Below the pieces are notes generated by a model, which was not told the DNA's origin, did no database searches, and saw only the letters and a program-made list of their open reading frames with translations. Of a stretch of DNA of 64,000 bases, positions 60,166 to 64,000 are shown piece after piece. The DNA lies in assembly GCA_027021615.1 (NCBI GenBank), contig JALUTY010000087.1:1-64000 (forward strand), in the 5' to 3' direction. Position 1 is the stretch's first letter. Each line of letters starts with the position of its first letter. The position numbers and the translations under genes are program-made. The stretch is from a bacterium. Lineage in GTDB: Bacteria; Desulfobacterota; Deferrisomatia; Deferrisomatales; Deferrisomataceae.

Positions 60166-61023
60166 GTGGAGCCCCGGCTCGAGACCGTCCGGTACCTCGC
60201 GCCCAGCGGGTTCCGGCGGCTCGCGCTCTGGGACTGGGGAGACCCGGTCAACCCGGAGGCGGTGGTCTGCGTCCACGGTCTCACCCGCACCGGGCGGGAC
60301 TTCGATCCCCTGGCCCGGACCCTATCGAGAAGGTTCCGGGTGGTCTGCCCCGACATGCCCGGCCGAGGCCAGAGCGACTGGCTCGCCGGACCGGAGGAGT
60401 ACGCCTACCCCGTGTACCTCCAGGCACTGGCCTGTCTGCTGGCCCGCCTGGGCGTCCGGGAGGTGAGATGGGTGGGCACTTCCATGGGTGGGCTCCTGGG
60501 CATGATGCTGGCGGCCGAGCCCGGTACCCCTTTGTGCCGACTCGTCCTGAACGACATCGGCCCGCTCGTGCCGGCGGCCGCCCTTGAGCGAATCGCCGGG
60601 TACGCCGGCGCTGACCCCCGGTTTGCCGACCTGGCCGAGGCCGAGAGCTACCTGCGCCGGGTCCATGCCCCGTTCGGTCTGCTGGCCGACGACGAGTGGG
60701 CCGAGCTTGCCCGCCACAGCGTCCGGGTCCTTCCTGAGGGCGGGTACGCCCTCCACTATGACCCTGCCATCGGGAAAACCCTGGGCACGGGCCCTTGGGA
60801 GGACGTGGACCTCTGGGAGGTGTGGGAACGGGTGACATGCCCCGTGCTCGTGCTCCGCGGCCGGGAGTCGGACGTGCTGCCTCCTCCCGTGGCGGAGCGG
60901 ATGAGCGGGGGGGCGGGCGTGGACCTCGTGGAGTTCCCAGGCGTCGGACATGCGCCCGCGCTTCGCGCCGGGGATCAGATCGAGGCCGTGGTCCGGTGGT
61001 TGACCCCGGACCCGAATGTTTGA
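60166..61023 (+). CDS. Alpha/beta hydrolase
   Basis: A 285-aa protein with the fold's landmarks: VVCVHGLTRTGRDFDPLART (oxyanion loop), VGTSMGGLLGMML (nucleophile Ser), LVLRGRESDVLPP (acid) and EFPGVGHAPALRAG (His). The substrate is unknown; co-transcription with a tautomerase hints at an aromatic- or keto-acid pathway. GTG start at 60,166, 1 nt after the tautomerase stop. Confidence 0.88.
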   Translation: MEPRLETVRYLAPSGFRRLALWDWGDPVNPEAVVCVHGLTRTGRDFDPLARTLSRRFRVVCPDMPGRGQSDWLAGPEEYAYPVYLQALACLLARLGVREVRWVGTSMGGLLGMMLAAEPGTPLCRLVLNDIGPLVPAAALERIAGYAGADPRFADLAEAESYLRRVHAPFGLLADDEWAELARHSVRVLPEGGYALHYDPAIGKTLGTGPWEDVDLWEVWERVTCPVLVLRGRESDVLPPPVAERMSGGAGVDLVEFPGVGHAPALRAGDQIEAVVRWLTPDPNV

Positions 61024-61114
61024 CCCCGCAAAATCGGCTCTGGAAATCTTCTCCCGGATCCCCTATCCTCCGCGCGGACCTTCCCCGCCCCCCTCTAAAC
61101 CCGAGGGAGAAGCC

Positions 61115-62230
61115 GTGAGCGAACGCGCCCGAAGAGTGCTCGGCGTACTGGCCGTCCTCTGCCTCCTGTACCTCTTCCTGGTCAGCATCGGCATGGTGGG
61201 GACCGCGTTCAAGCTGGCGGGCAAGGGGCTTGCCAAGGAGATCTTCGGGTTCGCCTCGAACCCCCTGACCGGCCTGTTCATCGGGATCTTCGCCACCTCG
61301 CTGGTGCAGAGCTCCTCCACCACCACCTCGATCGTGGTGGGGCTGGTGGCCGGGGGGATGCCGGTGAACACGGCGATCCCGATCATCATGGGAGCCAACA
61401 TCGGCACCAGCGTCACGAACACCCTGGTGAGCCTGGGCCACATCTCCCGCACCAACGAGTTCGAGCGGGCGTTCGCCGCCTCCACGGTGCACGACTTCTT
61501 CAACCTGCTGTCCGTGCTCGTGCTGTTCCCCCTGCAGTACGTTACCGGGTTCCTGGGCCACCTGGCCCACGGGCTGGCCGGGGCCGTGACCGGCGGCTCC
61601 GACCTCCAGTTCCACAGCCCCCTCAAGGCGGTGGTGAAACCCACGGTCCACCTGCTGGTGAACCTGGTGGGCGGGCTCACGCAGACCAAGATCCTTCACG
61701 CGGCCGCGGTGGTGGTGCTGGCCGGGGTGCTCCTGTTCATCTCCTTGAAGTACATGACCGCCATCCTGCGCGGCCTGGTCATGGAACGGGCGTCCGGGTT
61801 CTTCGAGCGCACGATCTTCCGCAACGCCCTCACCGCCTTCGTGGTGGGCATCCTGCTGACCGTCGGCGTCCAGAGCAGCTCCATCACCACCTCGGTGATC
61901 GTGCCCCTGGCCGGGGCCGGGCTCCTGACCCTGGAGCAGATCTATCCCTACACCCTGGGCGCCAACGTGGGCACCACGGTGACCGCGATCCTGGCTTCGC
62001 TGGCGGTGCCCGAGCACTTCACGGCGGCCGTGACCACCGCGTTCTCCCACCTGCTGTTCAACGTGTGCGGCATCATCGCGATCAACATCCTCCCGCCCAT
62101 ACGCCGGCTTCCCCTGCGGTTGGCCCGCACGCTGGCCGGCCAGGCCGCCCGGAGGAAATGGGTGCCTGTTTTGTACATTCTCGTGGTATTCTTTCTTATC
62201 CCCCTTTCCCTGATTCTTGCGACCCGGTGA
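61115..62230 (+). CDS. Na+/phosphate symporter
   Basis: A 371-aa membrane protein with the duplicated Na/Pi cotransporter repeats: ATSLVQSSSTTTSIVVGLVA and TVGVQSSSITTSVIVPLAG, each with the QSSS motif, and ANIGTSVTN / ANVGTTVTA. It moves phosphate into the cell with sodium. The PhoU-like gene starts 4 nt after its stop. GTG at 61,115 with GAGGGAGA is preferred over an ATG at 61,016 that lacks a ribosome site and overlaps the hydrolase. Confidence 0.9.
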   Translation: MSERARRVLGVLAVLCLLYLFLVSIGMVGTAFKLAGKGLAKEIFGFASNPLTGLFIGIFATSLVQSSSTTTSIVVGLVAGGMPVNTAIPIIMGANIGTSVTNTLVSLGHISRTNEFERAFAASTVHDFFNLLSVLVLFPLQYVTGFLGHLAHGLAGAVTGGSDLQFHSPLKAVVKPTVHLLVNLVGGLTQTKILHAAAVVVLAGVLLFISLKYMTAILRGLVMERASGFFERTIFRNALTAFVVGILLTVGVQSSSITTSVIVPLAGAGLLTLEQIYPYTLGANVGTTVTAILASLAVPEHFTAAVTTAFSHLLFNVCGIIAINILPPIRRLPLRLARTLAGQAARRKWVPVLYILVVFFLIPLSLILATR

Positions 62231-62234
62231 GCCC

Positions 62235-62924
62235 ATGTGGAAGGAACTGATCAAGATCTGGACCTCCCAGAGCCTGCTGGACCAGGCGTGGAAGGAGTCG
62301 TTCGACGCCCTGGAGATCGACCGGAAGATGTTCCTGGAGGCCGTGCGCATCCTCCGGGAGAGCGACGACCAGGAGCTGGCGTCCGAGATCCGGGAGATGG
62401 ACCGGCAGGTCAACAAGTACGAGCGCGACGTCCGGCGCAAGGTGATGACCCACTGCGCGGTCACCGGGACCGGCACGGCCGACCTGCCCAGCGCCATGGT
62501 GCTGGTGTCGATCATCATCGACATCGAGCGTATCGGCGACTACTGCAAGAACATCGTGGACCTGGCCCGGCACCATCCCCAGACCCTCTCTGCCGGGCCT
62601 TACGAGACCGACCTGGGCGAGGTGGAGAAGGAGCTCAAGGACCGGTTCGCCCGCACCATCGAGGTGCTGCACCACCACCACGTGGAGGGCGCCCGGGAGC
62701 TGATGGCCACCTACCGCACCGAGGTGGGGTCGGTGTGCGACCGGATCGTGCACGGCGTGGTGGGCGGGGAGAACCCCGAGTTCTCCGCGGCCGACGCGGC
62801 CACCCTGGCCCTGTACGCCCGGTACCTCAAGCGGATCACCGCCCACCTGAAGAACGTGGCCTCCAGCGTCGTGAACCCGTTCCCCCGCATCGGGTTCAAG
62901 GAGAAACGGCCGAAGAACCCTTAG
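62235..62924 (+). CDS. PhoU-like protein
   Basis: A 229-aa helical protein with two PhoU-type halves: REMDRQVNKYERDVRRKVMT, MVLVSIIIDIERIGDYCKNI (metal-binding E/DxxxD pattern) and a second set around YARYLKRITAHLKNVASSVV. It probably controls the Na/Pi symporter it is encoded with. ATG at 62,235. Confidence 0.9.
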   Translation: MWKELIKIWTSQSLLDQAWKESFDALEIDRKMFLEAVRILRESDDQELASEIREMDRQVNKYERDVRRKVMTHCAVTGTGTADLPSAMVLVSIIIDIERIGDYCKNIVDLARHHPQTLSAGPYETDLGEVEKELKDRFARTIEVLHHHHVEGARELMATYRTEVGSVCDRIVHGVVGGENPEFSAADAATLALYARYLKRITAHLKNVASSVVNPFPRIGFKEKRPKNP

Positions 62925-62946
62925 GACCCCTGGCCTGGGAGGCGAT

Positions 62947-62979
62947 GCGGGCCGCCCTGGGGGCGGCCCGCTTGCGTTT
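62947..62979 (+). terminator. Terminator after PhoU-like gene
   Basis: An 11-bp perfect GC stem, GCGGGCCGCCC / GGGCGGCCCGC with a TGG loop (62,947-62,971), is followed by TTGCGTTT. The weak T tail suggests an imperfect intrinsic terminator ending the symporter-PhoU transcript. Confidence 0.65.
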
Positions 62980-63046
62980 GGCAAGGTTGCACGGGCCGGA
63001 GGCCCGGGTACGGTTCCCCCCACACCCCAGCCCGGAGGAGCCCCCC

Positions 63047-63655
63047 ATGGCCACCCTGGAGATCTTCTTCGACTACGTCTGACCCTGGTGCTACTTCGAC
63101 ACCGTGGGTGTCGCCGCTGTGGAGCGCGATCTGGGAGTCGAGACCCGTTGGCTTCCGTTTCCCCTGCATCCCGAGACTCCAGACGAGGGGCTTCCGTTGG
63201 ACGAGCTCTTCGGTGGCCGGGTGGACGTGCCCGCCATGCTGGAGCGGGTGCGTCGCGTGGCCCAGGCCCTGGGGCTTCCCGTGGGGGAGCGGGCCCGGAC
63301 CTTCAACACTCGCAGGGTGCAGGAGCTGGGGCTCTGGGCCGAGGACGAGGGGAGGGGGGCGGCATTCCGCGACGTCGCGTTCCGAGCATACTTCGCCGAG
63401 GGTCGAAACCTGGCCGATCGTGAGGTGCTGAGGGATCTCGCTGAGACCGCCGGCCTCGACTCGGCAGAGGCGTTGAGGGTTCTGGGCTCCAGCCGCTATG
63501 CCCCGGCCCGAGAGAGGGCCTGGGCCGAGGCCTGGCGGCGGAGGGTGCGGGCCGTGCCCACCCACTTCCTGGGTCGGGCCGTGGCCGAGGGGTTTCACCC
63601 GCCCGACGAGCTGGCAGCGTGGGTCCGCCGTTTCCTGCCGGCCTGCGACCCATAG
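63047..63655 (+). CDS. DsbA/FrnE-like selenoprotein (TGA = selenocysteine)
   Basis: ATG at 63,047 with GGAGGAG 6 nt upstream opens MATLEIFFDYV, then an in-frame TGA (63,080-63,082, codon 12), then PWCYFDTVGVAAVERDL and 183 further residues in the same frame to 63,655 (202 aa). Proteins of the DsbA/FrnE/HCCA-isomerase thioredoxin family read 'FFDYVCPWC' here, so TGA replaces exactly the first active-site Cys (UPWC). The remainder is family-like (VPTHFLGRAVAEG near the C-terminus carries the cis-Pro loop). A hairpin fitting a bacterial SECIS lies just downstream. It is probably a thiol-disulfide oxidoreductase; there is no signal peptide. Alternative: nonsense mutation or sequencing error. Confidence 0.82.
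63080..63113 (+). promoter_or_regulatory. Candidate bacterial SECIS element
   Basis: After the TGA, a 14-nt gap leads to a 6-bp perfect stem CGACAC (63,097-63,102) / GTGTCG (63,108-63,113) with loop CGTGG. The loop begins 20 nt after the TGA and has G in its second position. This agrees with published rules for bacterial SECIS (UGA-to-loop distance 16-37 nt, G in the first two loop positions). Confidence 0.65.
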
Positions 63656-63712
63656 ATCTGTGGCCAAAATCTCTCCACTGGGCTCATGGTACTATTAACC
63701 TGGCAGCGATAA

Positions 63713-63738
63713 AGACGCGCTCTGGGGCGCGTCTATTT
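63713..63738 (+). terminator. Terminator after selenoprotein gene
   Basis: AGACGCGC (63,713-63,720) pairs with GCGCGTCT (63,727-63,734) around TCTGGG and is followed by ATTT. The T tail is short. The 142-bp gap 63,656-63,797 is relatively AT-rich and otherwise empty. Confidence 0.55.
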
Positions 63739-63797
63739 AGCCGGGGTATCAGTATCCTTGGGCACCGAGAGGGGCAGGATTCTCGGATCGGGGTCCC

Positions 63798-64000
63798 ATG
63801 CGTCTGTTCGTGTTCCTGGGCGTCGCCTTGTCCGTGTACGCGGCGATGCACGCGGTCGTGTACTGGGCCTTGCGGCCGATCTGGGCGGGGGCACCCCGGG
63901 CGGGAGCAGGCGTTGCGGCATGGATGGCCGCCATGGTCGCGGCGCCGGTGGCCGTGCGGCTCCTGGACCGGGCAGGCCTGGAGGCCGTGGCCCGGCCCCT
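63798..64000 (+). CDS. Partial gene, membrane-anchored N-terminus
   Basis: An open frame from ATG 63,798 to the window edge (67 residues). It begins MRLFVFLGVALSVYAAMHAV and has a second hydrophobic stretch VAAWMAAMVAAPVAV. The opening resembles that of membrane-anchored metallophosphoesterases (YkuE type), but no catalytic motif is inside the window, so this is a guess. The recognisable ribosome site is weak. Confidence 0.55.
   Translation, partial: MRLFVFLGVALSVYAAMHAVVYWALRPIWAGAPRAGAGVAAWMAAMVAAPVAVRLLDRAGLEAVARP

Follow-up and report, generated by a model that had tools for sequence, protein, structure and literature searches.

A bacterial FrnE-like thiol/disulfide oxidoreductase with a probable selenocysteine as catalytic nucleophile

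Introduction

Does a TGA codon that interrupts an otherwise open bacterial gene terminate translation, or does it specify the insertion of selenocysteine (Sec), and what kind of protein would result in the latter case? This question is raised by a locus close to the end of a 64,000-nucleotide stretch of bacterial DNA, hereafter termed the window, where a sequence-only reading had proposed a DsbA/FrnE-like protein carrying Sec instead of the first cysteine of a CPWC redox motif. That Sec is already known in DsbA-like folds, as stated in the same reading, is borne out by the literature: nine DsbA-like selenoproteins of COG2761 with the motif UXXC were described in the Sargasso Sea study of 2005 (Zhang et al.; PMC1088965), the GOS study contained 63 'DsbA 1' sequences (pfam01323, UxxC; PMC2398784), a list from 2006 included DsbA-like selenoproteins from sequenced bacterial genomes (PMC1794560), and a 2026 review with its table of prokaryotic selenoproteins has retained the 'DsbA-like protein form 1' (PMC13188914).

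Results

Reading frame and start of the gene

The sequence and frame of the gene are as described in the sequence-only reading (Table 1). Translation from the ATG at 63047 encounters a single in-frame TGA at codon 12, in place of the first Cys of the CPWC motif, and a frame scan of the 202-codon gene detected zero other stops ahead of the terminal TAG (63653-63655). The anticipated ribosome-binding site is found upstream of the ATG. The read-through product, which begins with MATLEIFFDYV-U-PWCYFDTVG and contains the UxxC motif U12-P-W-C15, matches the Pfam family PF01323 (DSBA) with 97.3 bits (cut-off 25.6, E=1.3e-27), and the GC content of its gene is similar to that of the window (70% and 71%). 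The expectation that automatic annotation would start at a downstream GTG and lose the active site proved correct, as a mechanical ORF caller selected GTG 63104 and returned a protein of 183 residues from which the UPWC motif is cut off. The window protein has no matching model in NCBIfam, and the best match of other family members (E=3.8e-13) is to a model built for another protein, a thioredoxin-like (seleno)lipoprotein. A terminator-like hairpin located between the preceding PhoU-like gene and the gene under study weakly suggests that the latter constitutes a separate transcription unit. Among the invariant residues of the family is Pro171, which we take to occupy the position of the cis-proline in thioredoxin folds.

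Table 1. Positions in the window of the gene and its associated features.
Feature	Position	Strand	Basis
Probable selenoprotein gene, DsbA-like (PF01323), FrnE-like, 202 codons including one UGA	63047..63655	+	Sequence, Pfam, profile and structure matches
Ribosome-binding site GGAGGA, 7 nt 5' of ATG	63034..63039	+	Sequence
In-frame UGA, probable Sec12 of the UPWC motif	63080..63082	+	Translation, homologue codons, hairpin comparison
Cys15 codon (TGC), proposed resolving Cys, invariant in family	63089..63091	+	Alignments
SECIS-like hairpin inside the coding sequence, CGACAC-CGTGG-GTGTCG	63097..63113	+	Sequence; stem comparison in 53 distinct Sec homologues
Pro171 codon (V170-P171-T172), invariant	63557..63559	+	Alignments
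Terminator-like GC-rich hairpin between PhoU-like gene and probable selenoprotein gene	62947..62971	+	1 site found vs 0.7 expected by chance, weak

Machinery for Sec decoding

The window belongs to a draft genome of 4.25 Mb in 134 contigs (97.8% complete). The sequence-only reading had proposed a search of this genome for selA, selB, selC and selD, and SelA (E=2.9e-152), SelB (336.7 bits, cut-off 242), SelD (356.4 bits) and a 98-nt tRNA-Sec bearing the anticodon tca (UCA) are all present. In selD itself, a UGA in frame occupies the catalytic position (TCGUAAK), and two FdhA-type genes (L098, L099) contain one at the usual U-H site, in the contexts ARL-U-HSATVAGL and ARV-U-HSTTVAGL. The presence of the machinery together with the UGA codons in selD and both FdhA genes thus implies that UGA is used for Sec elsewhere in the organism. 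The UGA of selD (L028 1471-2424) is located at codon 19, and ordinary gene calling would also cut this gene short.

Codon 12 in homologues

Homologues were collected from 59 related genomes and from a GTDB-wide contig collection, resulting in 73 loci that are readable at codon 12. As the alignment proposed in the sequence-only reading might have revealed, both TGA and Cys codons occur at this position, the former in 61 loci and the latter in eight, with TGG in one and Ser in three very distant sequences. Since one of the six peptides used to search the GTDB-wide collection contained Cys, which disfavoured TGA loci, the excess of TGA does not reflect a search bias. Sec forms are found in Desulfocapsaceae, Desulfobulbaceae and Desulfobacteraceae, and also on contigs labelled Acidobacteria, Planctomycetaceae, Chloroflexi, Longimicrobiales and Defluviicoccus. 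The TGA is also present in the genomes of the isolates Desulfofustis glycolicus DSM 9705, Desulfopila aestuarii DSM 18488 and Desulfonema magnum, the last of which is a complete chromosome. In an alignment of 31 sequences, D9, residue 12 (as Sec or Cys), P13, C15, P45, G48, N87, R89, F116, P171 and G182 are invariant, and this conservation of the protein on both sides of codon 12 strongly disfavours a decayed gene.

Several individual loci deserve mention. A close homologue from a metagenome-assembled genome (L051 2443-3009) contains TGG (Trp) at the Sec codon with the sequence of the SECIS stem intact, which points either to an error in sequencing or to a new replacement of Sec by Trp. In a homologue from Geobacteraceae (L071 3077-3595) the codon is TGT (Cys) and the core of the stem is retained, which suggests a recent change from Sec to Cys. 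Desulfofustis glycolicus DSM 9705 harbors a Sec form (L055) besides a Cys paralogue (L080). Three distant homologues of the same phylum (L010, L012 and L013; 25-33% identity) contain TGA at the aligned codon, and the use of Sec may on this basis extend past the compact clade.

A SECIS-like hairpin downstream of the UGA

The hairpin following the UGA is composed of the stem arms CGACAC (63097-63102) and GTGTCG (63108-63113) and of the loop CGTGG (63103-63107), in which C63103 and G63107 could also pair to leave a loop of GTG. A G is found within the first two bases of the loop and the spacing between UGA and loop is 20 nt, as expected of a bacterial SECIS element. The six-base-pair stem at SECIS distance is thus present as the sequence-only reading had claimed, but on its own it is no better than expected by chance: stems of at least six pairs appear at this distance in 29% of random synonymous recodings encoding the same peptide and follow 89 of the 456 TGAs in the window, and the fold energy of the hairpin is ordinary, with 20% of recodings being equally low. 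An Rfam scan found no element at the hairpin and hence adds no independent support.

The picture changes upon comparison of the stem in 53 distinct Sec homologues (numbered with the T of TGA as column 1). Three pairs covary, namely 21-31 (TA in 48, CG in 5), 22-30 (AT in 50, GC in 3) and 19-33 (AT in 45, GC in 5, GT in 1); the pair 23-29 is CG throughout, 18-34 is CG in 51 sequences and GC in one, and 17-35 is TA in 50. The mean paired fraction of 0.786 compares to a maximum of 0.778 in 2000 shuffles of codon columns, which do not remove shared ancestry, and to a maximum of 0.602 in 1000 uniform synonymous recodings. Codon choice in the stem region varies much less than in the sequence beyond it (ACC for 49 of 50 Thr, GGG for 43 of 43 Gly and TTC for 47 of 47 Phe). 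Pairs 20-32 and 24-28 are unpaired in most relatives, and what these sequences have in common is thus an internally mismatched stem closed by a mostly five-base loop of the type CGKGN. Among the eight Cys homologues the stem is mostly lost, with a mean pairing of 0.47. It is the comparison, with its covarying stem and the retained TGA, that lends significance to the putative hairpin, the single sequence being weak evidence.

Relationship to FrnE

The assignment as FrnE-like made in the sequence-only reading was confirmed by three kinds of searches. The FrnE of Deinococcus is the top match both in phmmer (E=3e-14) and in a sequence-profile search (E=2.9e-37), ahead of Streptomyces SCO1869 and 2-hydroxychromene-2-carboxylate (HCCA) isomerase. 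Using an AlphaFold2 model based on 31 sequences (pLDDT 97.3), Foldseek again placed FrnE first in the PDB (5xwh, E=1.5e-14; 5cp1, TM 0.92 on query length), with HCCA isomerase (2imd, E=1e-9, TM 0.78) and subsequently GST kappa as the next relatives in fold. In the model, Sec12 directly precedes a helix extending from residue 13 to 29, and the N-terminus leads straight into a strand comprising residues 3-8. As this first strand begins at once, leaving no room for a signal peptide, the protein would probably be located in the cytosol.

Distribution and genomic neighbourhood

The closest relative in the tree, a homologue from another family of the same order (G005), is placed as sister with a support of 0.97 and shares 53% identity. 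The gene is absent from the two congeners and the one further family member that were searched, all three of which retain selB, and it is thus dispensable. In the complete genome of one congener (G002), matches to positions 61017-62977 (~92%) and 63797-64000 (91%) of the window are found in the same order and close together, separated by 534 bp of unrelated DNA that replaces positions 62978-63796, and a search of this locus for a remnant of the gene found none. These features are explained either by a gain in the lineage of the window or by clean loss in its relatives. The largest cluster of conserved neighbours comprises nine loci, all of the Desulfobulbales type and none near the window gene, and provides no functional hint. 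Recognised by eye, the upstream neighbours (61016-62924) resemble a sodium/phosphate cotransporter and a PhoU-like gene, and the downstream neighbour (L002 2252-3376) resembles a membrane metallophosphoesterase; no functional link of these genes to the selenoprotein is evident. A plasmid collection contained distant matches only, with less than 40% identity among the ten matches listed.

Discussion

From the computed reading frame, its UGA, the decoding machinery, the conservation of both UGA and hairpin, and the fold, we infer that the gene very probably encodes a cytosolic FrnE-like thiol/disulfide oxidoreductase with a Sec nucleophile, which would be inserted at the UGA by SelB with the help of the hairpin. 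The interpretation of the TGA as Sec codon is strongly supported by the machinery, the 61 of 73 loci with TGA and the covarying stem. In the proposed mechanism, SelB and Sec-tRNA(Sec), bound to the downstream hairpin, would insert Sec at the UGA and thereby avert the stop. As part of UPWC at the N-terminus of helix 1, Sec12 would then attack its oxidised substrate, be it a disulfide or another compound; Cys15 would resolve the intermediate by forming a Se-S bond, whose reduction would fall to a cellular thiol system, the presumed recycling partner. Judged by analogy, the protein most likely acts by reducing disulfides or mixed disulfides, Sec serving as the nucleophile and Cys15 as the resolving residue. 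The assignment of a reductive direction would follow from the FrnE-like character of the protein, since the FrnE of D. radiodurans has been described as a cytosolic disulfide reductase that is recycled via a C-terminal CxxxxC motif (residues 239-244; PMC8945050).

The alternatives concern either the decoding of the gene or the chemistry of its product. A true stop or a sequencing error, converting a Cys-type FrnE homologue into an apparent Sec gene by a nonsense mutation or a wrong base, would be compatible with the draft state of the assembly and its 134 contigs, with the distance of TGA from both TGC and TGT of a single base and with the TGG in L051, which illustrates that base errors or mutations at codon 12 occur in draft genomes. 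However, this explanation is highly improbable and in practice refuted by conservation, as the TGA is shared by 61 homologues including isolate genomes, the gene is devoid of any other stop and the hairpin is conserved. Exceedingly improbable is a decoding of the UGA as another residue, by reassignment to Trp or Gly or by near-cognate read-through: the TGG in L051 would be in its favour, but the genome contains a full Sec system with UGA at the Sec positions of SelD and FdhA, it is the catalytic Cys that the UGA replaces, and, the TGG apart, close homologues that deviate at this codon encode Cys. A true start at GTG 63104, as chosen by the mechanical ORF caller, would yield a 183-residue protein without redox motif and has to be regarded as hardly credible, since no ribosome site precedes this codon, the stretch on its 5' side forms the SECIS stem, and the N-terminal strand and UPWC are conserved, with D9, residue 12, P13 and C15 invariant in 31 sequences.

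More serious, although still unlikely, is the view that the protein is a Sec enzyme other than a disulfide reductase, acting as isomerase or glutathione transferase akin to HCCA isomerase and GST kappa, or as peroxidase. Its basis is the rank of HCCA isomerase, followed by GST kappa, as next fold relative. However, HCCA isomerase and GST kappa have a catalytic Ser replacing the first Cys, a feature recalling the Ser homologues L014 and L016, and in HCCA isomerase this Ser is found instead of a UxxC or CxxC redox motif. Redox chemistry is favoured by UPWC, by the invariant Cys15 and by the top rank of FrnE among the matches.

Collectively, our analysis adds a firmly supported selenoprotein that is truncated by standard gene callers and unnamed in NCBIfam. 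The Sec and Cys forms and the one Trp form, with SECIS stems decayed in most Cys forms, constitute a natural series for the gain and loss of Sec in a single active site. General knowledge of selenoproteins is unchanged by this gene. As a tentative extension, the compact FrnE-like clade (~195-215 residues, without C-terminal CxxxxC) might be essentially Sec-based with Cys as the exception, being patchily spread among anaerobic lineages, missed by annotation models and recycled unlike classical FrnE.

The suggestion of the sequence-only reading that the subfamily assignment looks uncommon did not hold, since DsbA-like proteins of COG2761 with a UxxC motif have been listed as a selenoprotein family since 2005, and the window gene is a well-supported new example of this kind. 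COG2761 corresponds to the FrnE group. With HCCA isomerase (2imd, 3fz5), the window protein has fold and length in common at a lower level of matching. It shares the DsbA-type fold and, presumably, the cytosolic type with FrnE of D. radiodurans (DR_0659; PDB 5cnw, 5cp1, 5xwh), where the motif is CPWC and the first Cys occupies the position of Sec in UPWC. The C-terminal CxxxxC of FrnE is absent in the window protein, which ends at residue 202 and contains a single unconserved Cys200; this motif is found in many but not all FrnE proteins, being absent from those of S. roseofulvus and D. maricopensis (PMC8945050). Finally, the published DsbA-like selenoproteins (COG2761/PF01323) are likened to the window protein by the family PF01323, by Sec as first residue of UxxC, by a SECIS-type hairpin inside the coding sequence and by the existence of Cys homologues, whereas they differ in habitat, the published proteins originating from surface sea water and the homologues of the window protein mostly from anaerobic lineages of the Desulfobacterota type.
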